Shown: positions 24,257 to 40,955 of the stretch, one piece after another
Position numbering within the stretch: position 1 is the stretch's first letter
Layout: each line of letters starts with the position of its first letter
Source of the DNA: Streptomyces sp. NBC_01454
Lineage (GTDB): Bacteria; Actinomycetota; Actinomycetes; Streptomycetales; Streptomycetaceae
DNA length: 64,000 nucleotides
Assembly: GCF_036227565.1 (NCBI RefSeq)
Contig: NZ_CP109460.1
Span: 310,001-374,000 of the forward strand
Reading direction: 5' to 3'
The notes under the pieces: model-generated
Told to the model about the DNA's origin: nothing
The model's database searches: none
Seen by the model: the letters and a program-made list of their open reading frames with translations, nothing else
Made by a program: the position numbers and the translations under genes

Positions 24257-26506
24257 CTACAGCAGGTGCTCGATCCTGATCGGCAGTTCCCGTGCCCGGT
24301 AGCCGGTCGCGTGGAAGACGGCGTTGGCGATGGCCGCCGCGGCGCCGACCATTCCGACCTCGCCGAGCCCCTTGACGCCCAGCGGGTTGACGACCTGGTC
24401 CGGCACCTCCACGAACTCCACGTCGACGTCGGGGGCGTCGGCGTTGACCGGCAGCAGGTACTCCCCCAGGCCGGCGTTCGCCCAGCGGCCGTCGCGGGGG
24501 TCGACCACGGTGCCCTCCAGCAGCGCCTGGCCGATGCCCCAGAGCATCCCGCCCATGGCCTGACTGCGGGCGGTCTTGGCATTGAGGACCCGGCCGGGGG
24601 CGAAGGCGCCGACCATGCGGCGCACCCGCACCAGCCCGAGGTCCTGGTCGACGGCGACCTCGGCGAACTGGGCGCCGAAGGTGGCGAGCCCGTAGGGGAT
24701 GTCGGGTGCGGGCGGGCTCCAGCTGCCGAGCGCGTCCATGTCGGTCATGAAATGACGCTCCATCAGCTGGCGGTAGGTCTCGCCGGTCCCGGAGTCGTCC
24801 CGCAGCTCCATCCGCCCCTGGCGGACGACGACGGTCGCCGGGTCGGCCCGGTGCAGCGGGGAGCCGGGGTCGGCGACGGCCTGCGCGATCAGCTGGTCGC
24901 GCAGCGTGGTGACCGCGGTGTGCACCGCGGCGCTGATCATGCCGGCGCCCGCCGACCCGACCGTGGCCGCGACATTGGGCAGATCGGTGTCGCCGTACTC
25001 GAAACGGACCCGGTCCACGGCGACGCCGAGGCCGTCCGCGGCGACCTGGGTCATCACGGTGGCCGCTCCGGTACCGAACTCCTGCGTCCCGGCCTGTACG
25101 ACGGCGGAGCCGTCGGCGTAGAGACGGGCGCGGGCGCGCTGCGGCTGCATGGGGAAGAACACCGGGTAGCCGGCGGTGGCCATGCCCTTGCCGATCAGCC
25201 AGTTGCCGTCCCGTTCGGAGCGGGGTGCGGGATTGCGGGACTGCCAGTCGAAGCGGGCCGCGCCGCGGCGGTAGCACTCCGCCGCGCCGTCGCTCGACCA
25301 GGGGTGGCCGGTGTGGGGGTCGGCCTCGGCGTGGTTGCGCAGGCGCAGTTGCACGGGGTCGACGCCGATGCGGTGAGCAAGCTCGTCCATGGTGCATTCG
25401 AGGGCGAACATCCCCGTGGTCTCACCGGGGCCGCGGGTGAAGGTGGGCGTCATGGTGTTGCTGCGGATCAGCCGGTACACGCCCTCGTAGTGGGGGCAGT
25501 CGTACGCCTGGGCGGCCATGCCGAGCGAGGGTTCGGCCCACTCGTCGAACGGCGAGGTCAGCGAGAGCTTGTGGTGGCGCAGTGCGGTGAGCCGGCCGTC
25601 GGTCGTCGCCCCCAGCTCGATGCGTTGTTCCTGCTCCTCGCGGTGGCCGCAGGAGGTGCACATCTGCTCCCGGGTGAGCGCCAGTTTGACCGGGCGCCGC
25701 ACCCAGCGTGCGGCCATGGCCGCCAGGGTCACATGGGGCCAGATCATGGCCTTGCAGCCGAATCCGCCGCCGACGAACGAGGCCCGCACCCGCACCTTCG
25801 ACGGGGGGATGCCCAGCAGGGCCGCGACGGTGTTCTGGCTGGCCACGATGCCCTGGGTGGCGTCGTAGAGGGTGAGCCGGTCGCCGTCCCAGACCGCCGT
25901 GGTGGCGGAGGGTTCGATGGGGTGGTGATGGTTCGCGGCGAAATGGTAGGTGGCGTCCAGGTGGTGGGCCGCCGCCACGAAGCCGGCCTCGACATCACCG
26001 CGCACGCTGCGGGCGGGAACGAACCCCGCGAAGATCGCCTCGGGTTCGTAGGCCTGGTCCCGGCCCTCGTCCAGGGTGGTGACGGAGGCGCCGCGCGCGT
26101 AGTCGACATGGACCTGCCGGGCCGCGAACTGGGCACGTTCACCGGAATCGGCGATCACCATGGCCACGGGCTGGCCGAAGTAGTGCACCACCTCGTCCTG
26201 CATCGGGAAGAAGCTCTCCCCGGGGGCCGCATGACCGGCCAGCGAGGGCAGCAGATGCGGCGGGGCGGCGACCTTCGGCAGGTTGCGGTGCGTCAGCACA
26301 GCCAGCACCCCGTCGGCGTCCTCCGCGGCGCGCGTGTTGATGCCGGTGATCCGCCCGTCGGCCGTACGGGCGCCCACGAGGGCCGCGTAGGCGGTGCCGG
26401 GGAGGGTGAACTCCGCCGCGTAGCGGCCGCGTCCGGTGACTTTGGCGGGGCCGTCGACCCGGTCGAGGGGCCGGCCGAGGGCTTCGAGAGTGCTGCCCGT
26501 GGTCAT
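24257..26506 (-). CDS. molybdenum hydroxylase large (Moco) subunit
   Basis: A 749-residue xanthine-oxidase-family subunit holding the molybdopterin cofactor. GPAKVTGRGRYAAEF opens the chain. GGGFGCKAMIWPHVTLAA is the conserved Moco loop, RGPGETTGMFALECTMDELA the substrate-channel segment, and KGLGEVGMVG carries the catalytic glutamate near the C-terminus. ATG 26506 overlaps the FAD-subunit stop by 4 nt. With the two upstream genes it forms a complete three-subunit hydroxylase, arranged like PaoABC aldehyde oxidoreductases. An aldehyde or N-heterocycle substrate is likely. No maturation chaperone gene is seen beside it. Confidence 0.92.
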   Translation of the reverse strand: MTTGSTLEALGRPLDRVDGPAKVTGRGRYAAEFTLPGTAYAALVGARTADGRITGINTRAAEDADGVLAVLTHRNLPKVAAPPHLLPSLAGHAAPGESFFPMQDEVVHYFGQPVAMVIADSGERAQFAARQVHVDYARGASVTTLDEGRDQAYEPEAIFAGFVPARSVRGDVEAGFVAAAHHLDATYHFAANHHHPIEPSATTAVWDGDRLTLYDATQGIVASQNTVAALLGIPPSKVRVRASFVGGGFGCKAMIWPHVTLAAMAARWVRRPVKLALTREQMCTSCGHREEQEQRIELGATTDGRLTALRHHKLSLTSPFDEWAEPSLGMAAQAYDCPHYEGVYRLIRSNTMTPTFTRGPGETTGMFALECTMDELAHRIGVDPVQLRLRNHAEADPHTGHPWSSDGAAECYRRGAARFDWQSRNPAPRSERDGNWLIGKGMATAGYPVFFPMQPQRARARLYADGSAVVQAGTQEFGTGAATVMTQVAADGLGVAVDRVRFEYGDTDLPNVAATVGSAGAGMISAAVHTAVTTLRDQLIAQAVADPGSPLHRADPATVVVRQGRMELRDDSGTGETYRQLMERHFMTDMDALGSWSPPAPDIPYGLATFGAQFAEVAVDQDLGLVRVRRMVGAFAPGRVLNAKTARSQAMGGMLWGIGQALLEGTVVDPRDGRWANAGLGEYLLPVNADAPDVDVEFVEVPDQVVNPLGVKGLGEVGMVGAAAAIANAVFHATGYRARELPIRIEHLL

Positions 26507-27501
26507 GCCGGCTCGCCTCGCAGGGCGGCGGCGGTCCGCAGCGCGCGGACGACCGTGCGCCGGGCGAGCTCGGCCTTGAAGGCGTTCATCGGGCGGGTGA
26601 CGGCGGGCGCCAGCTCCGCGGCCGCGGCCCGCGCGAAGGTGTTCTCGTCGGCGGGCTGCCCCAGGAGCATCTCCTCGGCCCGGTGCGCCCGCCACGGCTT
26701 GGTCGCGACCCCGCCCAGCGCCAGCCGGGCCCCGCGGATCACCCCGCCCGCCACCTCCAGCGCCACCGCCGCCGAGGCGAGGGCGAACTCGTAGGACTCC
26801 CGGTCGCGCACCTTGAGGTAGAGCGACCTGCGCGCCATGCGGAGCGCCGGGACCTCGATCTCGGTGATCAGTTCGCCGGGGGTGAGGGGGTGTTCCCGTT
26901 CGGGGGTGTCCTCCGGGAGCAGGAAGAAGTCGTCGACCGGGAGGGTCCGGGCTCCCCGGACACCCTCCACGTGCACCACGGCATCGAGCGCGACGAGCGC
27001 CACCGCCAGATCGGAGGGGTGGGTGGCGATGCAGTGCTCGCTGGTCCCGAGGATCGCATGGCCGCGATGGACGCCCTCCAGCGCCGAACAGCCGCTGCCG
27101 GGAACGCGTTTGTTGCAGGCGGATTCGGGGTCACGGTAGTAGGAACACCGCACCCGCTGCATCAGATTTCCGCCCATCGACGCCATGTTCCGCAGCTGGG
27201 CGGAGGCCCCCAGGAGCAGCGACTGGGACAGCATCGGGTACCGCTCGACGACACCCGGCGCCTCGGCCACCTCGCTCATCCGGGCCAGCGCGCCGATGAC
27301 CAGTCCCCCGTCGGCCCGGTCCTCGATACCGGCCAGCGGGAGTCGGTTGATGTCCACCAGCCGGTTCGGCCGCAGCACGTCCAGCCGGATCAGGTCGACT
27401 TCCGTGGTGCCGCCCGCGAGGAAGGAACTGCCGGGGTCGTTCGTCACCGCGGCGACCGCGCCGGTGACGTCGGTGGCACGGGTGTAGCTGAGGGCACGCA
27501 C
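26503..27501 (-). CDS. molybdenum hydroxylase FAD subunit
   Basis: A 332-residue FAD-binding subunit. FLAGGTTEVDLIRLDVLRP is the N-terminal flavin loop, and LGASAQLRNMASMGGNLMQR the second flavin motif. The segment RCSYYRDPESACNKRVPGSGCSALEG contains cysteines that in PaoB-type subunits bind an extra [4Fe-4S] cluster. The start is GTG. It sits between the 2Fe-2S subunit (one base apart) and the Moco subunit (4-nt overlap), so all three are one transcript. Confidence 0.92.
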   Translation of the reverse strand: MRALSYTRATDVTGAVAAVTNDPGSSFLAGGTTEVDLIRLDVLRPNRLVDINRLPLAGIEDRADGGLVIGALARMSEVAEAPGVVERYPMLSQSLLLGASAQLRNMASMGGNLMQRVRCSYYRDPESACNKRVPGSGCSALEGVHRGHAILGTSEHCIATHPSDLAVALVALDAVVHVEGVRGARTLPVDDFFLLPEDTPEREHPLTPGELITEIEVPALRMARRSLYLKVRDRESYEFALASAAVALEVAGGVIRGARLALGGVATKPWRAHRAEEMLLGQPADENTFARAAAAELAPAVTRPMNAFKAELARRTVVRALRTAAALRGEPA

Positions 27502-27502
27502 G

Positions 27503-28048
27503 TCACTGTCCTGTCTTCCGGTCGCGCATCTCGCGTATGGCGGAGCGGATATGGGGATAGGCCGCGCACCGGCAGATGTTGCCGCTCATCCACTCGGCGA
27601 TCTCGCGGTCGTTCTCGGCATGCCCCTCGTCCAGCAGCGCGACGGCGGACATGATCTGGCCGGGGGTGCAGTAGCCGCATTGCAGGGCGTCGTGCTCGAG
27701 GAACGCGCGCTGCATCGGGTGCAGCTCATCCCCCTCGGCGAGCCCCTCGATGGTGGTGACGTCGCGGCCCTCGCAGGTGACGGCCAGCGTCAGGCAGGCC
27801 AGCACTCTGCGCCCGTCGACCCATACCGTGCACGCCCCACAGGTGCCCTGGTCACAGCCCTTTTTGGTACCGGTCAGCGCCATGTGCTCACGCAGTGCGT
27901 CCAGCAGGCTCACCCGCGGTTCCAGGTACAGGGCGCGCGAGACGCCGTTGACGACGAGGTCCATCTGCACGCCGTCGGGCCCGCGGATCTCCATGGCGGA
28001 GGGCTTGGCGACGGATAGGGACGCGCCTTTGTCTGCCACGACACTCAC
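27503..28048 (-). CDS. molybdenum hydroxylase 2Fe-2S subunit
   Basis: A 181-residue electron-transfer subunit with two [2Fe-2S] clusters. The plant-ferredoxin-type cluster has GCDQGTCGACTVWVDGRRVLAC. The helical-domain cluster has LQCGYCTPGQIM and SGNICRCAAYP. The start is GTG 28048. It is the first gene of the three-subunit operon and is divergent from an Rrf2 regulator, 133 bp away, which may control it. Confidence 0.93.
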   Translation of the reverse strand: MSVVADKGASLSVAKPSAMEIRGPDGVQMDLVVNGVSRALYLEPRVSLLDALREHMALTGTKKGCDQGTCGACTVWVDGRRVLACLTLAVTCEGRDVTTIEGLAEGDELHPMQRAFLEHDALQCGYCTPGQIMSAVALLDEGHAENDREIAEWMSGNICRCAAYPHIRSAIREMRDRKTGQ

Positions 28049-30321: not shown

Positions 30322-30843
30322 TTGTCAGAAAGCAGCAGCGTTCCGGTACACCGGCCCCGCCGGCGGGAGGAGGCCCTCCAGCGGCTGCTGTTCGGCGGGG
30401 TGTACGGTTCGGTGCTCGCCAGCGCGCTGGCGGCGGCCCTGGACCACGAGGGCCGGCCCGCGGACCCCGGGTACGACGCGCTGTGGGTGACGCTGGCGGC
30501 GATCGCGTCGGCCGCGGCGCACGGCTATGCGCACTCCATCGCGCACCGGACCGAGGAGGACACCCAGGTCACCGCGAGCGCGGTGCGTTCGATGCTCACC
30601 GAATGGCCGCTGGTGGCCGCGGTGGTGCCGACGGTGGCCGCCCTGCTCGGCTCCTATGCGCTTTGGTGGAGCGAGGAGAGTGCGGTCGAAGTCGCCCTGG
30701 GCGTCAATATGGTGGCGTTGTTCGGCTGGGGCGTGTGGGCGGCCCGGGTGGCGCGCCGGGGGTGGCCGGCGTCGCTGCGGGTCGGTGGTGTGGACGTGCT
30801 GATCGGGCTGTTCATCGTGATCGCCAACGTCGTGAGCAAGTAG
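30322..30843 (+). CDS. integral membrane protein, function unknown
   Basis: A 173-residue protein starting at TTG. It has about four to five hydrophobic helices (LLFGGVYGSVLASALAAAL, ALWVTLAAIASAAAHGYAHSIAH, LVAAVVPTVAALLGSYALWW, VALGVNMVALFGWGVWAARVA, VDVLIGLFIVIANVV). Histidines cluster in HGYAHSIAHRTEED at the end of helix 2. The family is common in Streptomyces but unassigned. It is convergent with the graspetide ATP-grasp gene, with about 60 bp between. Confidence 0.75.
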   Translation: MSESSSVPVHRPRRREEALQRLLFGGVYGSVLASALAAALDHEGRPADPGYDALWVTLAAIASAAAHGYAHSIAHRTEEDTQVTASAVRSMLTEWPLVAAVVPTVAALLGSYALWWSEESAVEVALGVNMVALFGWGVWAARVARRGWPASLRVGGVDVLIGLFIVIANVVSK

Positions 30844-30902: not shown

Positions 30903-31832
30903 TCACAGCGGTGCTTTCACCGCCAGCCAGTCGGCGATGGCCTGGGCGATGGGCTGGTCGGTCTCCAGCTGGACGAAGCCGAACTGGCCGCCCTGGTTGC
31001 ATTCCAGGAACCACCAGGCCCCCTCGGGGTCCTCGGCGAAGTCGAAGGCACCGTAGGCGAGTTGGGCAATGCTCATGTACTGGAGCACCGCCTGGTGGAT
31101 GGCGTCCGGCGCCTCGACGGCCTCCCAGGTGCCGTGGTGGGTGAAGCGGCTGTCCACTTCGTCGGGGTCGGCCTTCTTGCGGGCGGCGAAGAGCTGGTCG
31201 CCGACGCAGGTCAGCCGGATATCCGCCGCCTTGGGGACATGCCGCTGGAGCAGGGTCGGGCCGGCCGCCACCCCGGAGAAGTCCGTGTCCGGGCTGATGC
31301 GGGTGGTGGGCAGCACCATCGGCGGGTCGCCGGGGTGCTTTCCGCTGACCGACTTCACCACGAGGTCCCGCTGGGCGGCGGCGAACTGGCGGGCGGCGGA
31401 CGGGAAGGAGGTGAGCAGTGTGGGGGGTACGAGGAAGCCGCTGCGATGGGCGATATGGAGCTGCCAGGGCTTGTAGCGGGCCTGTGCGGCCACGGTGGGG
31501 TGGTTCATCCACCGCGCCCGGGTGCAGCTGAGCATGCCGTACAGCGCCTGCTCGGCCTCGGCCGTGATCCAGGCGGACTGTTCGGCCGAGCGTGCTCCGG
31601 GAGCGCCGGGCCGGCGGACCCATACCGAGCGCAGGCTGTTCAGGCTCACCATGCGTTCGCCCGACTTCAGATATCCGTGGAAGTCGTTGTCGGTGTACTC
31701 CGCCGACAGGGAGACGCGCCCGGGGAGGTCGGCGGGGTCGAGACGGACGAGCGGCACCCCGAGTTCGTGCAGCGTCGCGACCACGATGTCCGCGGTCAGG
31801 TCTTCCTCACAGGTGAGGACCAGGACGGTCAT
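30903..31832 (-). CDS. tgmB: graspetide ATP-grasp ligase (TgmB)
   Basis: A 309-residue ATP-grasp enzyme of the RiPP-maturase branch that makes side-chain ester or amide links in a precursor peptide. The N-terminal domain begins MTVLVLTCEEDLTADIVV. ATP-grasp elements include RDLVVKSVSGKHPGD (nucleotide Lys), RHVPKAADIRLTCVGDQLFAARKK, and the metal-binding YGAFDFAEDPEGAWWFLECNQGGQFGFVQ. It starts 6 nt after the precursor gene tgmA, so they are co-translated. No methyltransferase follows, unlike many loci of this group. Confidence 0.93.
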   Translation of the reverse strand: MTVLVLTCEEDLTADIVVATLHELGVPLVRLDPADLPGRVSLSAEYTDNDFHGYLKSGERMVSLNSLRSVWVRRPGAPGARSAEQSAWITAEAEQALYGMLSCTRARWMNHPTVAAQARYKPWQLHIAHRSGFLVPPTLLTSFPSAARQFAAAQRDLVVKSVSGKHPGDPPMVLPTTRISPDTDFSGVAAGPTLLQRHVPKAADIRLTCVGDQLFAARKKADPDEVDSRFTHHGTWEAVEAPDAIHQAVLQYMSIAQLAYGAFDFAEDPEGAWWFLECNQGGQFGFVQLETDQPIAQAIADWLAVKAPL

Positions 31833-31838
31833 CGGTGC

Positions 31839-32030
31839 TCAGTCGTCGAAGTGGGTCTTGGAACCGGCGGTGGAAGCGGTGGTCCCGGTGGCCAGCAGCA
31901 CGGCCCGGCTGCAGGTGGCCGGGCGTCCGTCCGGCAGGACGTTGAGTTGCCGCGTGGCGTCGTAGCTGTACGGGGTGCTGGTCGCCGACTTCACCGCCGG
32001 GCGGGCGTAACTCAACGCAAACGGTCGCAT
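31839..32030 (-). CDS. tgmA: graspetide precursor peptide (TgmA)
   Basis: A 63-residue precursor starting at ATG 32030, with a near-perfect RBS (AAGGAG, 4 nt before the ATG). The leader (1 to about 43) has the family signature PFALSYARP and YSYDATRQLNVLPDGRPA. The core (about 44-63) is rich in Thr/Ser and ends in two aspartates (T50, T51, S53, T54, S57, K58, T59, D62, D63). D62 and D63 are the only acidic residues in the core, so at most two ester or amide bonds are expected. One cysteine (C40) lies in the leader. The ATP-grasp partner is immediately downstream. Confidence 0.92.
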   Translation of the reverse strand: MRPFALSYARPAVKSATSTPYSYDATRQLNVLPDGRPATCSRAVLLATGTTASTAGSKTHFDD

Positions 32031-32246
32031 GCCATCTCCTTCAAAAATCGGTTTCCAAGCCTTAGGCACGGGGCAGAGGTGGAAAGCCCCGCCTTATGAC
32101 TCTGCACGGAAGACGCGACAATCTGGCCGTTTAGTTGCTTCTTTTGCTCGTTTCCAGCGTTCCCCTTGACTGAAAAGCGGCGAACGCGTACTCACTGTCT
32201 TCGTTATGTGTCGCCGTGTAGGCGCCGGGACCCGAGCGCGACGGAA

Positions 32247-33135: not shown

Positions 33136-33882
33136 TCACACCCCGAGCAGGCCCAGCGGCGGGCTGGTGGGCCGGCTGGAGCCGCCCGGCGGTTCCGCGG
33201 TGATGCCCACGCCGTCGGCGCCCTGCGGTCCGCCGGTCAGCAGCATCGCGCCGCTGGAGCGGCCGGTCTCGACGAGTCCGGCGGGGACCATCGAGCCGTT
33301 GCGGCTGTACCAGAGTTCGTAGACCCGCTGACCGGACAGCGCCGGCAGGCCGTGGTAGAGGAACGCGGTGCGTCCCTGCCGCTTGGAGGCCACGACCGTC
33401 CCGCTGCCCCCGCCCTTGAGCGCCGTGGTGTGGAAGGTGGCGTCCGGAGCGGCCAGCAACGCGCTCACCGCGGCCGCCTGTTGCTCGGCGCGCACGCTGC
33501 GGTCCCGTTGCGCGTCGGCGTCGTGCCGGGCCTGGACGGCGTACCCGCCGGCGACCGCGGCGGCCACCAGACAGGCGGCGGCCGCCAGATAGGGCAGCCG
33601 GTGCCGCATCCGCCGGCGCATCGGCACCACGCTCGCCGCGTGCTCCACCGGCGGCAGTTGTCGGACCTCGGGCAGGGCGGCCATCACCCGGGTACGCAGG
33701 GCGGCCGGGGGGACCTCGGCCACCGCCAGGGCCAGCCGGGCCGCGGTCTCCTGGAGTTCGCGTACCTCCTGGGTGCAGGCCACGCACCGGTCGAGGTGGC
33801 GGGCGAACTCCGCGGCCTCCCGGCCGGTCAGCGCGCCCAGGGCGTAGGCGCCGGTCAGGGTGTGCAGTTCGACGGTGCTCAT
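33136..33882 (-). CDS. zinc-binding anti-sigma factor (RskA type)
   Basis: A 248-residue single-pass membrane anti-sigma factor. The N-terminal cytoplasmic domain has the HxxxCxxC motif in HLDRCVAC that binds zinc and clamps the sigma factor. A transmembrane helix (LPYLAAAACLVAAAVAGGYAV, about residues 97-117) leads to an extracellular RskA domain with AFLYHGLPALSGQRVYELWYSRNG. It overlaps the sigma gene by 4 nt (ATGA). Release is expected by regulated proteolysis or by a redox signal. Confidence 0.93.
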   Translation of the reverse strand: MSTVELHTLTGAYALGALTGREAAEFARHLDRCVACTQEVRELQETAARLALAVAEVPPAALRTRVMAALPEVRQLPPVEHAASVVPMRRRMRHRLPYLAAAACLVAAAVAGGYAVQARHDADAQRDRSVRAEQQAAAVSALLAAPDATFHTTALKGGGSGTVVASKRQGRTAFLYHGLPALSGQRVYELWYSRNGSMVPAGLVETGRSSGAMLLTGGPQGADGVGITAEPPGGSSRPTSPPLGLLGV

Positions 33883-34469
33883 GCCGATACCCCCAGGCAG
33901 TCGCGGAGCCGGATCAGCCCGTCCCGCAGCCGTGTCTTGACCGTTCCCAGTGCCGTGCCGAGCAGGTCGGCGGTCTCACGGTAGGTGTACCCGCGGTAGT
34001 AGGCGAGCGTCACCGACTCCCGCTGGAGCTCGGTCAGCTGTCCCAGGCAGCGCCGGACCTGTTCGCGCTCCAGCCGTCGTTCGACCTGCTCGCTGACCTC
34101 GTCGAACGCCGCGGTGTAGCCGTACACCGCGGCCCGGTGGTCACGGTCGGCCGCCGCCTGGGCCGAGCGCACCCGGTCCACCGCGCGGCGGTGCGTCAGC
34201 GTCATGATCCAGGCCATGGCGCTGCCCTGCCGCGGGTCGAAGCGGGCCGCGGTCCGCCACACCTCGATGAGCACCTCCTGCGCGACCTCCTCGGACTGCG
34301 CCGGGTCCCGCACCACCCGGCGCACCAGGCCCAGTACGGTCCCGGCCACCGCCGTGTAGAGACTCTCGAACGCCTGCTGATCGCCCCGGGAGACGCGGTC
34401 GAGCAGGGACTCCAGGGCACCGGCGTGCGGCGCTGAGGAGCGGTCGCCGCGGCGGGCTGCGACGGGCAT
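33879..34469 (-). CDS. sigK: ECF sigma factor, SigK-like
   Basis: A 196-residue ECF sigma factor. Region 2 (about 25-95) has FESLYTAVAGTVLGLVRRVVRDPAQSEEVAQEVLIEVW. Region 4 (about 135-190) has LTELQRESVTLAYYRGYTYRETADLLGTALGTVKTRLRDGL. ATG 34469 follows GGAGG; a GTG at 34475 would overlap the RBS. It is co-transcribed with its anti-sigma factor. The oxidoreductase and carotenoid genes next door are possible targets, by position only. A 17-bp palindrome lies just upstream. Confidence 0.92.
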   Translation of the reverse strand: MPVAARRGDRSSAPHAGALESLLDRVSRGDQQAFESLYTAVAGTVLGLVRRVVRDPAQSEEVAQEVLIEVWRTAARFDPRQGSAMAWIMTLTHRRAVDRVRSAQAAADRDHRAAVYGYTAAFDEVSEQVERRLEREQVRRCLGQLTELQRESVTLAYYRGYTYRETADLLGTALGTVKTRLRDGLIRLRDCLGVSA

Positions 34470-34482
34470 GGACACCTCCGGA

Positions 34483-34499
34483 CTGTGACGTGGTCACAG
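34483..34499. promoter_or_regulatory. 17-bp inverted repeat before the sigma gene
   Basis: CTGTGAC-GTG-GTCACAG has perfect 7-bp arms. It ends 14 bp before the sigma ATG, just upstream of the RBS. It resembles a Crp/Fnr-type site (TGTGA...TCACA) but with a 5-bp rather than 6-bp centre. It is a likely operator or leader element. Confidence 0.5.
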
Positions 34500-34624
34500 C
34501 TGATTCGGCGCCGGATGACACCTGGATTGGTGGAGAGAGGATTCTTGCCGATCGCCCGGCGGACACCGCACCCGCCCCGGGGCCCGTACCGCCGGCCCGC
34601 CGGCCCGCCGGTACGGGGTACGGG

Positions 34625-35866
34625 CTACCGGCCGAGGTCGCGCAGGATCTCGCGGGCCGCACGGGCGCCGGAGGCCAGCGCCCCCTGGACGGAGCCGGTC
34701 GCCCGGTGGTCCCCGCACACATAGCGGCCGGGGCCGATGCGCGACGGCCGGCTCAGTGGCTGCGGCGGCAGCATCGCGGGCAGCGCGTCATGGACGGTGC
34801 GGACGGTGAGCAGCTCCCATGCGGCGGTGTCGGCGTCATAGCCCTCGGCCAGCGCCGTACGCAGTCCGTCCTCCCGGCCGGGGGTGTCCGCGCCGAGCAC
34901 CGAGGTGGCCACCAGGCTGTAGCCGTCCGGCGCGTGACCGGGGACCACCTCGCTCAGGACGCAGGTGTGCAGAAACCGCCGGCGGACGTCGACGAGCAGG
35001 GTCGGCTCGGCCAGGGGTGTCACGGTCGCCGCGTGGTAGTAGGTCGTGACCTCGCGGTGCGGCGGGATGTACAGCCCGGGCAGCAGGGAGGCGGCCGCGG
35101 CGGCTCCGGTGGCGACCACGACGGTGCGGGCCGCGAGGTGCTCGCCGCCGGCGGTCATCACCCCGTCGTCGGTGAGCCGGGCGACGGGGCAGTCCAGCCG
35201 CACCGCGTCCGGCGGCAGCACGCCGGCGAGCTGCCGGGGCACCGCGCCGATGCCGTCGCCCGGCAGGCACAGGGTGCCGCGCAGCATGCTGCGCCACACC
35301 AGATGGAAGAAGCGGCTGGAGGTCTCCAGTTCGTCCTCCAGGAAGACCCCCGACAGGAACGGCCGGAAGAACCGCTCGACGAACTCCTCGGACACCCCCG
35401 CCGCGGCGAGCGCGGTGCGGGTGGTGCGCTCCGTGCCGCGTTTGAGGAGGGCGGCCGGCGCCAGCGCGTCGCGGGCCGACAGCGCGCCGAGCGCCAGCAG
35501 ATCCCGGGGGCCGGCCAGCCGGCCCGGCAGCAGATCGGCCGCCCGGCGCGGCTCGCGGCTGGGGTCGGCGAAGCGCAGCCGGCCCTTCCCGGTGTGCACG
35601 AGCACGGCCGGCGAGAACGGGTGGAGCCGGAGCGCGCGTCGCTGGATCCGCTTTTTGACCTGGGGGTAGGCGGTGTTGAACACCTGGAATCCGCGGTCGA
35701 TGACGAACCCGTCCACCCGGTCCGAACGCATCCGCCCGCCGACCCCGTCAGAGCCTTCGAGGACCTGGACGGTCAGTCCGGCCGACCGCAGATCACCGGC
35801 GCAGGCGAGCCCGGCCGCTCCCGCACCGACGACCAGGACATCGACCGCACTGCCGGCTGCCGTCAT
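34625..35866 (-). CDS. FAD-dependent amine-oxidase/phytoene-desaturase-like oxidoreductase
   Basis: A 413-residue flavoprotein. It has the N-terminal VLVVGAGAAGLACAGDLRSAGLTVQVLEGSDGVGGRMRS dinucleotide motif and the C-terminal GRYVCGDHRATGSVQGALASGARAAREIL flavin motif. GFQVFNTAYPQVKKRI and FFRPFLSGVFLEDELETSSRFFHLVW place it near carotenoid and protoporphyrinogen oxidoreductases. The start is ATG 35866. It is divergent from crtY (200 bp between), so it may modify a carotenoid end group, but a non-carotenoid role is possible. Confidence 0.82.
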   Translation of the reverse strand: MTAAGSAVDVLVVGAGAAGLACAGDLRSAGLTVQVLEGSDGVGGRMRSDRVDGFVIDRGFQVFNTAYPQVKKRIQRRALRLHPFSPAVLVHTGKGRLRFADPSREPRRAADLLPGRLAGPRDLLALGALSARDALAPAALLKRGTERTTRTALAAAGVSEEFVERFFRPFLSGVFLEDELETSSRFFHLVWRSMLRGTLCLPGDGIGAVPRQLAGVLPPDAVRLDCPVARLTDDGVMTAGGEHLAARTVVVATGAAAAASLLPGLYIPPHREVTTYYHAATVTPLAEPTLLVDVRRRFLHTCVLSEVVPGHAPDGYSLVATSVLGADTPGREDGLRTALAEGYDADTAAWELLTVRTVHDALPAMLPPQPLSRPSRIGPGRYVCGDHRATGSVQGALASGARAAREILRDLGR

Positions 35867-36066
35867 GGGGCACCGCCTTTCGCCTCGGGCACCGTGTCCG
35901 CACGCCGCGGGCCGGCGGGGCCGGTGCGCCGCTGTGGGCTCTTCGTACCGTCCCGCCGCGACGCCCGGCCGGATCCGCCGGAATTCCCGCGCGTCGCACC
36001 CCGCCGCCCGGCCGGGAACTGCGCAAGGATCACCGTCGGGGCACCGAGGCACGGAGAGGACCGGGT

Positions 36067-37254
36067 GTGCGGGACGCGGATGCCGTCATCGTCGGCGCGG
36101 GAGCGGCCGGGCTCTCGCTCGCCCACCGGCTGTGCGCCCCGGCGGCGGGTCCCGGGCCCCGGGTGCTGCTGGTCGACGCACCGCCCGGACCCCGCACGCC
36201 GCCGGAGCGCACCTGGTGCTACTGGGAGACACCCGGCGGCGCCTTCGACGGCGCGCTGACCGCCTCGTGGGAACGGCTGCGCGTCCACGGGCCCGGCGGC
36301 GCGGCGACCGTGGGCAGCCCCGCGCCCTTCCGGTACAAGATGCTGCGCTCGCGTGATTTCGAGGCCCTCGTCGGCGCCCGGCTCTCGGGTGAGGACGGTG
36401 TGGTCCGGATCGAGGCGACCGTGGATTCCGTACGGGACGCCGCCGGTGGGGCCGAAGTACGAGGGCGCGACACGGCGGGGCGGCCGGTGCTGCTGCGGGC
36501 GCGCTGGGCCTTCGACTCCCGGCCGGCCGGCCGCCTGCCGTTGGCCCGCACGACGCTCCGGCAGCATTTCCGCGGGTGGTTCGTGCGGACCCGGCGGCCC
36601 GCGTTCGACCCCGCGACGGCGGATCTGATGGATTTCCGCACCCCGCAGCCCGCCCACGGTCTGTCGTTCGGCTATGTGCTGCCGCTGGGCGAGTGTGCCG
36701 CGCTGGTGGAGTACACGGAGTTCTCCCGCCGCGCCGCGGACACCGCCGCCTACGAGCGGGCCCTGCGCCACTACACCGAACAGGTGCTGCGCCTGGGCGC
36801 GTTCCGCGTCACCGGGACCGAGCAGGGCGTGATCCCGATGACCGACGGGCGCTTCCCGCGGCGGGGCGGACGCGCGGTGTTCCGCATCGGGACCGCGGGC
36901 GGCGCGACCCGTCCGTCGACCGGGTACACCTTCGCCGCCGTGCAGCGGCAGAGCACGCTGATCGCGGCGGCCCTGCGGGCGGGCCGGACGCCACTCCCCC
37001 CGCCCGCGCACACTCCGTGGCACCGGGCGATGGACGCGGTGCTGCTGCGGGCGCTGGACAGCGGACGGGTGGACGGGGCCGAGTTCTTCACCGGGCTGTT
37101 CCGCACGGTGCCGACGGCGCGGCTGCTGCGGTTCCTCGACGGCCGCTCCCGGCTGTGGGAGGACGTCAGCATCGGCCTGCGCACGCCCGTGCTGCCGATG
37201 CTCCGCACCGTCGCCGAACTCCCGCTGCTGCCCCGCCGTTCCGCGCCCTGGTGA
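36067..37254 (+). CDS. crtY: lycopene beta-cyclase (CrtY type)
   Basis: A 395-residue flavoprotein cyclase that closes the beta-ionone rings of lycopene. The Rossmann motif AVIVGAGAAGLSLAHRL, the family motif ERTWCYWE, and RIGTAGGATRPSTGYTFAAVQRQS are diagnostic. LPLGECAALVEYTEFS is the conserved core with catalytic acidic residues. The start is GTG after GGAGAGGA. It is followed after 79 bp by crtU on the same strand, giving a lycopene to beta-carotene to isorenieratene order. Confidence 0.93.
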   Translation: MRDADAVIVGAGAAGLSLAHRLCAPAAGPGPRVLLVDAPPGPRTPPERTWCYWETPGGAFDGALTASWERLRVHGPGGAATVGSPAPFRYKMLRSRDFEALVGARLSGEDGVVRIEATVDSVRDAAGGAEVRGRDTAGRPVLLRARWAFDSRPAGRLPLARTTLRQHFRGWFVRTRRPAFDPATADLMDFRTPQPAHGLSFGYVLPLGECAALVEYTEFSRRAADTAAYERALRHYTEQVLRLGAFRVTGTEQGVIPMTDGRFPRRGGRAVFRIGTAGGATRPSTGYTFAAVQRQSTLIAAALRAGRTPLPPPAHTPWHRAMDAVLLRALDSGRVDGAEFFTGLFRTVPTARLLRFLDGRSRLWEDVSIGLRTPVLPMLRTVAELPLLPRRSAPW

Positions 37255-37333
37255 CCCGTCCCCCTTCCCCGGCGCCGGGCGTCCGCCGCGCCTGCGCCCT
37301 TCGCTCCTCGTACCGACCCCTTGAGGAGGGCTC

Positions 37334-38899
37334 GTGACACCTCGACAGCGGCACGACGGGGCCGCGCGGCGCGGACGTGACCGGCGGGCCCACCGGGTGC
37401 CGGGGCCGCCGGGGCGGGACCGGGCCGCGCCCGAGGGGCCGTGCGTGGCGGTGATCGGCGGCGGCATCGCGGGCCTCGCCGCCGCGACGGCGCTGGCCGA
37501 GCGGGGTGTGCGGGTGACCCTGTACGAGCGGGAGCGGAGCCTCGGCGGCCGGCTGGCGGGCTGGCCGGTGCGGCTCGCCGACGGCTCGCGGGCGACCATG
37601 AGCCGCGGGTTCCATGCGTTCTTCCCGCAGTACTACAACCTGCGGGGGCTGCTGCGGCGGGCCGACCCGGGGCTGGACGTGCTCCGGCGGCTGCCGGACT
37701 ATCCGCTGCACCACCGTTCGGGCCTGCGGGACAGCTTCGCGCGGGTGCCGCGGACACCGCCCTGGAGCGCGCTGGGTTTCGCGGCGCTCAGCCCCAGCTT
37801 CGGCTGGCGGGACCTGGCGCGGATGCACCCCGGGGCGGCGCTGCCGCTGCTCGACGTGCGGGTGCCGCAGGTCTACGAGCGGCTGGACCGCACCAGCGCC
37901 TGGGACTTCCTCGCCCGCATCCGGTTCCCCGAAGCCGCCCGGCACCTCGCGTTCGAGGTGTTCTCCCGGAGCTTCTTCGCCGATCCGCGGGAACTGTCGG
38001 CCGCGGAGCTGGCGTTGATGTTCCACATCTACTTTCTCGGCTCCAGCGAGGGCCTGCTGTTCGATGTGCCGCGCGAGCCCTTCCCGCAGGCCCTGTGGGA
38101 GCCCCTCGGCCGGTACCTCGCCGGACACGGGGTGGCGCTGCACACGGACACGGAAGTGGCGGGGGTGGAACCGGCGGCGGACGACGGGCTGCGCGTCGCC
38201 GTCTGCGGGGAGCGCGCGGAGCGCCGGTTCGAGGCGGTGGTCCTCGCGCTGGACCCCGGCGGGCTGCGCCGGCTCGTCGCCGCCTCGCCCCGGCTGGGGA
38301 ACGCCGCCTGGCGGGCGCGGGTCGGGCGGCTGCGGACCGCGCCGCCCTTCGTGGTGTCCCGGCTGTGGCTGGAGCGCCGGGTGTACGCCGACCGGCCCGG
38401 CTTCCTGGGGACCAGCGGTTACGGTTCGCTGGACAACGTCAGCGTGCTGGAGCGCTGGGAGGGGGAGGCGGCCCGCTGGTCCGCCCGTACCGGCGGCTCG
38501 GTGCTCGAACTGCACGCCTACGCCGTGTCCCCCGATGCCGACCGTGGGCGCGAACAGCGCCGTCTGGTGAGCCAGTTGCACGCCCTCTATCCGGAAACCC
38601 GCGGCACCCGGATCATCGACCGGCGCCATGAGTGGCGCGCGGACTGCCCACTGTTCCCGGTGGGCGGCTACGGCGACCGGCCCACCGTGCACACCCCCGA
38701 CCCGCGGCTGGTGGTGGCGGGCGACGCGGTGCGCACCGCGCTCCCGGTGGCACTGATGGAGCGCGCCGCGACGACCGGGTTCCTCGCGGCGAACGCCCTG
38801 CTGGCGCGCTGGGGCGTGCGCGGCCAGACCTTGTGGACCGTGCCGGGCAAGGGGCGTTCGGCGGTGCTGCGGTGGGCGGCCCGGCAGACCGGAGGGTGA
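37334..38899 (+). CDS. crtU: carotenoid phi-ring synthase/desaturase (CrtU)
   Basis: A 521-residue FAD enzyme that desaturates and migrates a methyl group on beta-rings to give the aromatic phi-rings of isorenieratene. It shows CVAVIGGGIAGLAAATALAERGVRVTLYERE, GFHAFFPQYYNLRGLLRR (a CrtU hallmark), SEGLLFDVPREPFPQALWEPL and the C-terminal GDAVRTALPVALMERAATTGFLAANALL. The first 35 residues are a basic, likely disordered extension; the GTG at 37334 could be replaced by a later start. It is downstream of crtY and convergent with the Rieske gene. Confidence 0.92.
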   Translation: MTPRQRHDGAARRGRDRRAHRVPGPPGRDRAAPEGPCVAVIGGGIAGLAAATALAERGVRVTLYERERSLGGRLAGWPVRLADGSRATMSRGFHAFFPQYYNLRGLLRRADPGLDVLRRLPDYPLHHRSGLRDSFARVPRTPPWSALGFAALSPSFGWRDLARMHPGAALPLLDVRVPQVYERLDRTSAWDFLARIRFPEAARHLAFEVFSRSFFADPRELSAAELALMFHIYFLGSSEGLLFDVPREPFPQALWEPLGRYLAGHGVALHTDTEVAGVEPAADDGLRVAVCGERAERRFEAVVLALDPGGLRRLVAASPRLGNAAWRARVGRLRTAPPFVVSRLWLERRVYADRPGFLGTSGYGSLDNVSVLERWEGEAARWSARTGGSVLELHAYAVSPDADRGREQRRLVSQLHALYPETRGTRIIDRRHEWRADCPLFPVGGYGDRPTVHTPDPRLVVAGDAVRTALPVALMERAATTGFLAANALLARWGVRGQTLWTVPGKGRSAVLRWAARQTGG

Positions 38900-38911
38900 A
38901 CTGGGGGGGGG

Positions 38912-38931
38912 CGCCCGCCGGGCTCCGGGCG
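38912..38931. terminator. weak hairpin between crtU and the Rieske gene
   Basis: CGCCCG pairs with CGGGCG around an 8-nt loop, in the 41-bp gap between the convergent crtU and Rieske genes. It is a modest candidate for a shared terminator. Confidence 0.35.
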
Positions 38932-38940
38932 TGCTGCGCC

Positions 38941-39945
38941 TCAGCCCGGGTGGCGTCCGCTGTTGCGCAGTTCCCAGCGGCGCTCGGCGTAGGCCATGTC
39001 GTCGCGCCACAGACGGCCCGCGGCGGCGCGCATCAGCGGGCGCAGGGCGGGCGCGGCCGCGCGTGCCAGGGCGAATCCCGGGCGCCGGGAGGTGGCGACG
39101 ATCGCCTCGACGACGGCGGTGCGCGGGCGTCCCCGGTCGTCCGGGCCCAGCGGGGTGGCGTGGGTCTCCACCACCGAGCCGCGCCCTTCGCCGGCCACGA
39201 TGTGCATCACCACGGTGCGCGGCTCGGGGGCGGTGAACCGCGCCGTGACCGGCACGACGGCCCGGCCGGCGACCTTGAACGAGACCTCCACGGTGAAGCC
39301 TTCGGCCGGCTCGCCGTCGGCCGGGGAGCCGGCCACGGTGAGGTCGGCGAAGGAGTAGGGGTGGAACCACGCGCCGTGCCAGGGATCGAGGCGGTTGGCC
39401 ACCACGTCCTCGGGTTCGCAGACGCCGGTGGCGGTGTGGACGGCGGCGACGGTCCCGCCCGGCCGCGGCCGGGCGGGGAGGACCGGCGCCGGCAGCGGCA
39501 GTTCGCCGCCCGCCTCGTCCAGCCGCACCCAGGCCAGCAGGCCGTCGTCGTGGGCGGGAAACGGCTCCCAGCCGGCGAACGGGGCGCCGTCCAGGGCGAG
39601 TCCGTGCCACCGGCAGCGGAGGATGCCGCAGTGCACCGGGCCGAGCGCGAGGGGCGCGCCCAGGTGGGGGCACGCGCCGGGGCCGGCGACCAGGCGGCCG
39701 GCGGCGTCGCGCCAGGCGACGACCTCGACGCCGGCGACGGTACGGCCGAAGGCGCGGCCGGCGGCGATGTCGCGTGCCGCGCCGAGGACGAACCAGTTGC
39801 CGGAGGGGCGGGCGAGCGCGGTCTTCACGGCGCCGGCGATGACCGCGGGCCGGGCGTCACGCCAGGTGGGGCGCTGCTGTGCCCAGGGCTGCGGCCGCCG
39901 CAGCCGCAGCGGGAGGCGTGGCTGGGGGCGGGGCGCCCGGCTCAT
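38941..39945 (-). CDS. Rieske 2Fe-2S protein of the carotenoid cluster (DUF5914-like)
   Basis: A 334-residue protein. The Rieske motif [24 protein letters not shown] (Cys-x-His and Cys-x-x-His ligands) lies near residues 95-120, followed by a C-terminal domain with [22 protein letters not shown] 39945 overlaps the crtB stop by 4 nt. Such proteins recur in Streptomyces isorenieratene loci, but I know of no settled reaction. An oxygenase acting on the carotenoid is a reasonable guess. Electron donors are not encoded nearby. Confidence 0.85.
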
Positions 39946-40955
39946 GGGGTCTGCTCCGACACCGACACCGACGCGTGCGCCGGAGCGGGCCGCTGTGGTC
40001 TGCCGGGCGGCGCGGCGGGCCGCCCGGCGGTGAGGCGGGTGGCGGCCAGGCGGGCCAGACCGTCCGCGACGGTCGCCATCCGGCGCCGGCGGGAGACCAC
40101 CGCGCGGCGGTGCAGCACGGCGTAGCCGTCGTCGCGCACGGCGTCGAGGATGGCGCGGTAGAGGACGTACGCGGTGCGGATGCACGGGCGCGCGGACGGC
40201 TCGAGCAGGGCGAGGCCCGGCGCCGCTTCGCGGTAGACGCCGTGGGTGAGGTCGGCGGCGGCCATCAGGGCCGCGGTGATCCGCGGGTCGCGTGCGCCGG
40301 TGTCCCGGCTCCAGCGGAGCAGGTGGCGGTCGACGCCGTGCGCCGCGAGCAGATCCGCGGGCAGATAGATCCGGCCCCGGTCGAGATCCTCGCCGACGTC
40401 GCGCAGGAAGTTGGTGAGCTGGAAGGCGATGCCGAGGGCCGCGGCGTGCGGCGCCGCCTCCTCCTGCGGGACGACCGTGCCGAGCACCGGCAGCATCTGC
40501 AGCCCCATCACCGCGGCCGAGCCGTGCATATAGCGGCGCAGCTCGGCGTAAGTGGGGTAGTCCGTCACCGTCAGATCGCTGCGCATGGACGCCATGAAGT
40601 CCAGGAAGTGGCGGTGGTCGATGCCGTACCGTGCGGCGGTGTGCGCCACCGCGCGCACCACGGGTTCGGTGGTCGGGGCGCCGCGCAGGCCGTCTTCCAG
40701 GCACTGCCGCAGGGCGTCGAGCGCGGCGGCGCGGCCGGCGGTGGTGCGGCCGGCGCCGGGCTCGTCGACGAGGTCGTCGGCCCAGCGGGCGAAGCCGTAC
40801 AGGGCGTGGACGGCCGGCCGGCGGGCCGCGGGCAGCAGCCGGGTGGCGAGGAAGTAGGTCTTGCCGTGCCGGGCGTTGAGCCGGCGGCAGTGGGCGTAGG
40901 CGTCGCGCAGGAGGGGATCGGTGACCCCTGCGGCGTCCAGTTCGCGGTCGGTCAT
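39942..40955 (-). CDS. crtB: phytoene synthase
   Basis: A 337-residue head-to-head prenyl synthase that joins two GGPP molecules into phytoene. The two Asp-rich metal motifs are [14 protein letters not shown] and [32 protein letters not shown] is the N-terminal substrate helix. It overlaps crtI by 4 nt upstream and the Rieske gene by 4 nt downstream, so the three form one translationally coupled unit. GGPP must come from a synthase outside the window. Confidence 0.95.

Follow-up and report, generated by a model that had tools for sequence, protein, structure and literature searches.

Judged from its sequence, the tgmA-tgmB pair in the window (the whole stretch of DNA that was analysed, 64,000 nucleotides) is a real and intact graspetide locus of the PF14404 family, of an ordinary sort and made up of two genes. 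The pair very probably directs the formation of an unmethylated peptide carrying up to two links, made by the side chains of D62 and D63 of the precursor. An earlier note on this DNA had described a 63-residue precursor adjoining an ATP-grasp ligase at a distance of 6 nt, and the list of open reading frames and direct translation confirm the coordinates and lengths, as well as the 6 nt between the tgmA stop and the tgmB ATG. The full TgmA sequence is MRPFALSYARPAVKSATSTPYSYDATRQLNVLPDGRPATCSRAVLLATGTTASTAGSKTHFDD. The ribosome site of its gene, AAGGAG, ends 5 nt before the ATG and was rated good.

Table 1. Features of the tgmA-tgmB locus, in positions of the window
Feature	Position	Strand	Description
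Conserved region upstream of tgmA	32031-32170	minus	putative regulatory DNA, in which no known box was recognised
tgmA	31839-32030	minus	63 aa, ATG start; PF14404 (Strep_pep) graspetide precursor
TgmA core, about residues 49-63, GTTASTAGSKTHFDD	31839-31886 (codons and stop)	minus	near-invariant block
tgmB	30903-31832	minus	309 aa; ATP-grasp graspetide synthetase, TIGR04187
Unclassified small protein	30322-30843	convergent with tgmB	downstream neighbour of tgmAB

Family membership and surroundings of the locus

Both proteins match their families far above chance level. The PF14404 model is matched by TgmA over 63/63 positions at 114.6 bits (cut-off 25; E 2.2e-33), and TIGR04186 at 53.4 bits (cut-off 25). 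TgmB scores 372.9 bits with TIGR04187, the SAV_5884-like model (cut-off 350), and lies far below the cut-offs of both MvdC and MvdD. With the TIGR04187 and TIGR04186 cut-offs exceeded, the previous assignment to the SAV_5884-like group was right. The leader reads MRPFALSYARP...PYSYD...QLNVLPDGRPA, and the only acidic residues after it are D62 and D63, the last one before them being D34, so the translation bears out the description of a core that ends in Asp-Asp and has no other acid. The locus combines a full-length PF14404 match, a TIGR04187 gene directly downstream and the ending STAGS(K/Q/A)THFDD; in whole-model match, gene order and core it has no essential difference from other PF14404 precursors with TIGR04187 synthetases.

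A scan of species genomes yielded 410 relatives, and the best 80 of the 410 were fetched with their flanks, some of which stop at contig ends. The tgmB match starts 7-28 nt past the tgmA stop in 80/80 fetched PF14404 loci. Besides tgmA and tgmB, no gene family was called in more than 33/80, which rules out an obligatory third gene. One family is found upstream of tgmA in 29/80 loci (for example L067:9456-9881), on the same strand in 27 of the 29, and the single member scanned is a DUF1232 protein.

In the window, an alpha/beta hydrolase gene lies upstream of the pair on the same strand, and scans for sigma-70 promoters and terminators at the locus found none. A phage origin was rejected, TgmA having no PHROG match and TgmB matching only a general RimK-like family. 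Elsewhere in the window, positions 33136-40955 contain a SigK-subfamily ECF sigma factor accompanied by an anti-sigma factor of the RskA type, beside genes resembling those of lycopene cyclase, phytoene/presqualene synthase and FAD desaturase, all below curated cut-offs; from these resemblances, the region is likely a carotenoid cluster. Positions 24257-28048 contain molybdenum aldehyde or xanthine oxidoreductase-like genes, two subunits of which were scanned and gave PaoC- and PaoA-like best matches, below cut-off.

Among solved structures, TgmB is best matched by PDB 9BOU (402 bits), an MvdD-like pre-ATP grasp domain-containing protein that belongs to a different clade of the family, on which no publication was found in the literature. 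In alignment, 9BOU is near-identical to the TgmB encoded at L053, a PF14404 locus of S. ardesiacus (688 bits), so a structure from the PF14404-linked sub-family exists. Residues K160, R206, R218, D264, E277 and N279 (TgmB numbering, which is the alignment-row numbering + 1) are invariant in 22 aligned rows, and by analogy with ATP-grasp enzymes they are taken to be the metal and nucleotide residues. TgmB appears to be an ATP-grasp enzyme of the MvdC/MvdD/TIGR04187 type with these residues in place, as looked for in the graspetide class.

Absence of a methyltransferase gene beside PF14404 loci

The earlier note had remarked that loci of this group often have a third gene, for a methyltransferase, and that none is here. 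The absence stands: in a profile search, none of the 17 TIGR04188 matches of the genome lies in the window. The implied loss does not, since the PF14404 relatives are also without one and their synthetases form a branch of their own. In 24 genomes, chosen for carrying PF14404 in few contigs, a TIGR04188 match (E below 1e-40) within 2.5 kb was found for 0/25 PF14404-linked TIGR04187 genes over the cut-off, and TIGR04188 lies beside 22/23 other TIGR04187 genes of the same genomes, at a roughly estimated distance of about 100 nt or less. The 23 include partial matches over the cut-off. One gene (G007 C1:3846052) was reassigned to the PF14404-linked set, the earlier counts being 24/24 without and 22/24 with a methyltransferase; eight TIGR04187 matches below 350 bits (3 with a methyltransferase near) and seven shorter fragments were left out. 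A scan of the 80 fetched PF14404 loci with six methyltransferase queries, for which the TIGR04188 search serves as the independent test, gave a match in 1/80, 8.3 kb away. In a quick, unrooted tree of 53 synthetases, made without bootstrap, the 37 that are PF14404-linked (window included) are split from the 16 that are methyltransferase-linked with an SH-aLRT of 100. Two loci, L145 and L146, were placed on the PF14404 side by hand: they adjoin PF14404 matches, and their Ala58 core had been missed by the motif test. In screening, the absence of a methyltransferase is no sign of novelty among PF14404 loci.

The genome of the window contains three more TIGR04187 loci above the cut-off and one that is broken, each with an adjoining methyltransferase. 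These four share TIGR04187 with TgmB and are methyltransferase-linked like the graspimiditides (group 13), a set of graspetides with a PIMT-type methyltransferase gene that comprises fuscimiditide, amycolimiditide, albusimiditide and SsfA. In the characterised graspimiditides the methylated Asp sits in a loop, according to the accessible part of PMC13001092, and fuscimiditide is described in the corresponding part of PMC12291112 as having two acceptors 4 residues apart in the stem. The window locus differs from them in that it has no adjacent PIMT-type methyltransferase (TIGR04188), no loop Asp for an aspartimide, the core Asp residues being D62 and D63 only, and predicted acceptors that are adjacent at the C-terminus.

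The same genome has, at C1:4740927-4742721 (L014, L015, L001), a TIGR04187 synthetase in a 276-aa frame that is without about profile positions 177-263. This truncated synthetase adjoins the best-scoring TIGR04188 methyltransferase of the genome.

An origin of the window locus from a group 13 locus that lost its methyltransferase would agree with the leader and enzyme families in common and with the adjoining TIGR04188 gene of 22/23 other TIGR04187 genes, but it is unlikely. The PF14404 relatives have no methyltransferase either (0/25), a result on which loss at the window locus is rejected, the PF14404-linked synthetases stand on their own branch, and a loop Asp is missing from the TgmA core. 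The gene may have been lost before the PF14404 clade as a whole arose, the tree being unrooted, yet such a loss would not be specific to the window locus. On the preferred reading of a two-gene PF14404 locus, no methyltransferase would act on TgmA, since its core is without a loop Asp and no such gene stands beside any PF14404 locus examined, and the product would be unmethylated.

The conserved core and its predicted links

The boundary between leader and core is a putative one, placed from conservation. The window core conforms to the near-invariant PF14404 signature GTTxSTAGS(K/Q/A)THFDD, in which T51, S53, S57 and T59 are invariant, residue 54 is T or K, and residue 58 is K, Q or A. HFD is found near the end in 296/296 PF14404 sequences tabulated and the ending HFDD in 295/296, counts that include the same gene met twice across collections (the distinct set has 235 sequences). 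With A52 and K58, the window core is of a common subtype, and exactly the same core is shared by 37/296 sequences. It had been called unusual, a description that is not borne out; the core was rejected as an oddity because it equals the PF14404 consensus. Nine of the 153 loci entered into the tabulation yielded no sequence: L120, L171 and L181 are ordinary precursors outside the pattern, all ending THFDD, L177-L179, L183 and L184 are weak matches within other long frames, and L176 is apparently out of frame.

Substitution rates were compared in the window gene and the 80 fetched genes (81 in total, 79 distinct as DNA), a set in which conservation is biased because the loci were retrieved through the words TAGSKTHF or QLNVLPDG. 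The pN/pS ratio is 0.063 in the core (residues 49-63), 0.26 and 0.32 in two motifs of the leader, and higher in the spacer (0.78) and in the linker adjoining the core (0.68). Checks on the word bias used loci found via the Pfam model and the 34/80 fetched loci with the leader word QLNVLPDG, in all 34 of which the core keeps THFDD. Purifying selection on the core is strong across the PF14404 family, and the new observation is how much slower its evolution is than that of the preceding linker.

The chemistry, the number of links, their donors and the lack of methylation are predicted here from the family. Graspetide synthetases phosphorylate a carboxylate, which is then attacked by a nucleophile (PMC13097080, accessible part). 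TgmB would bind the conserved TgmA leader at PFALxYARP and at the YxYD...QLNVLPDG segment, and would use ATP to phosphorylate the Asp62 and Asp63 side chains. Core Ser/Thr (or Lys) side chains would then attack the activated Asp62 and Asp63, and the outcome would be one or two rings close to the TgmA C-terminus, closed by an ester or an amide. Leader removal and export would presumably be carried out by enzymes encoded elsewhere.

By sequence, the only possible carboxylates in the TgmA core are D62, D63 and the C-terminus. The earlier limit of at most two links holds for the side chains. With the C-terminal carboxylate counted in, two links are no strict ceiling, since SsfA, with four Asp and no Glu among its last 12 residues, was inferred to have a fifth link of the side-to-end type (PMC10787088, accessible part). 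A third link in TgmA, through the C-terminal alpha-carboxylate, is nevertheless decidedly improbable, because the precedent is single and structurally unproven and nothing in the TgmA sequence demands such a link.

The candidate donors are the invariant T51, S53, S57 and T59, plus residue 54. The core is so invariant that donors are unreadable from its variation, residue 54 excepted. Of the 235 distinct sequences, 229 have Thr at position 54 and six have Lys; position 58 is occupied by Lys (181 sequences), Gln (43) or Ala (11), and all six Lys54 sequences carry Ala or Gln there. A tree was made of 71 synthetases, thinned from 142 by dropping only near-copies with Thr54/Lys58; on this quick tree, which has no bootstrap and for which the direction of the residue 54 changes is assumed, residue 54 changes between Thr and Lys twice and residue 58 changes five times, both residue 54 changes falling where residue 58 is not Lys. 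Lys58 was rejected as an obligatory amide donor, given Gln or Ala in 54/235 distinct sequences. Residue 54 is put forward here, for the first time, as a candidate link donor and the likeliest of the set, since a swap between Thr and Lys would keep a donor and turn an ester into an amide. Alternatively, Lys54 stands in for a lost Lys58 donor, four residues off. The best guess at the ring pattern, offered tentatively, is a nested hairpin with links from 53 or 51 to 63 and from 54 to 62. In Gra-4, which has TxxKxxDD repeats, the data suggest both Thr and Lys links (PMC9576775, accessible part), and this peptide serves as a precedent for adjacent Asp pairs with one Thr and one Lys. The swaps at residues 54 and 58 lead to cheap, testable predictions on the ring pattern.

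The remaining readings are very improbable. One has another methyltransferase of the genome act on TgmA in trans; the genome does have 8 strong TIGR04188 matches (E below 1e-40), but 4/8 adjoin other TIGR04187 genes, none of the 8 comes closer to the window locus than 2.2 Mb (a weak match of 25 bits lies 1.2 Mb from it), and the core offers no Asp beyond the two predicted to accept links. It is just as hard to credit that the locus is expressed but its product unlinked, or that it is decayed: there are signs of decay in the family, where the PF14404 precursor L176 (genome G085) appears to lose its reading frame before the core and the tgmB match of L045 falls into two pieces that overlap (14-493 and 454-945 nt past tgmA), as in a broken frame. 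At the window locus, by contrast, neither frame is interrupted, tgmA has a good ribosome site and TgmB keeps the putative ATP-grasp residues; family-wide, purifying selection strongly constrains the core.

Distribution, upstream DNA and possible role

PF14404 graspetides are a very common but little-studied RiPP family of Streptomyces. In genomes sampled from the genus (Streptomyces, judged from named relatives), PF14404 is above the cut-off in at least 161/295, a lower bound since 20 candidates were scored per genome. A class-wide sample has it in 22/394 genomes, all of one genus among 137 genera; further named relatives come from Actinacidiphila, Wenjunlia and a record that bears the label Kitasatospora. 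Protein searches returned 61 relatives for the TgmA sequence and 610 for an alignment. Some genomes have two PF14404 loci, namely G063 (L114, L182) and also G001, G007 and G049, and in G063 the two PF14404-linked synthetases fall in different clades of the 71-synthetase tree.

Literature searches found no product of the window locus or proven PF14404 member, no statement of the biological role of the family and no text combining ATP-grasp with the core word KTHFDD; two of the papers searched name PF14404 or Strep_pep. The prunipeptin cluster, which is suspected to belong to PF14404, reportedly has two genes. Prunipeptin, from Streptomyces prunicolor (MIBiG BGC0002725), is by a title cited in PMC13097080 (accessible part) a bicyclic peptide from a cryptic Streptomyces cluster, and its cluster family is given 3,589 members, 99.53% of them Streptomyces, in the accessible part of PMC11888242.

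Upstream of tgmA, about 140 nt are conserved in 12 loci (the window locus and its 11 nearest fetched relatives), most of their neighbours differing. Of 46 invariant columns in these 12 loci, 44 belong to the upstream stretch or the start codon, and the ribosome site and ATG account for 9 of the 44. A BldD box, TNAC(N)5GTNA as defined in the accessible part of PMC4151990, was looked for with a longer consensus at first and later in this exact published form. None was found upstream of the window tgmA, and a BldD box was rejected for this locus. In the sister group with MQP precursors, an exact box, often TTACGCAGCGTAA, is present near -133 or -73 in 28/49 loci (L030-L095). After thinning of near-copies, boxes are found in 7/9 MQP loci against 0.22 expected from shuffles, and in 4/24 of the remaining thinned loci, window included, against 1.04 expected, a significance that is overstated because the motif was seen by eye and then tested on the same sequences. 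These boxes suggest BldD control in the MQP sister group, as a lead and not as proof.

The near-frozen core and the conservation upstream of tgmA suggest a function in the producing organism. On a speculative reading, which as a whole is rather doubtful, the product may be an in-house Streptomyces peptide, a developmental signal or an inhibitor of one of its own proteases, and not a diversifying weapon, with expression tied to development and a donor switch between Thr54 and Lys54. Among other graspetides, microviridins and plesiocin are inhibitors of serine proteases. The in-house reading draws on the core that is near-frozen genus-wide, on the gene pair kept in changing surroundings, and on the BldD boxes of the sister group and the different conserved upstream block in the group of the window locus. 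The locus itself is ordinary, and its interest lies in belonging to a very common family whose peptide is almost unchanged across many Streptomyces species.
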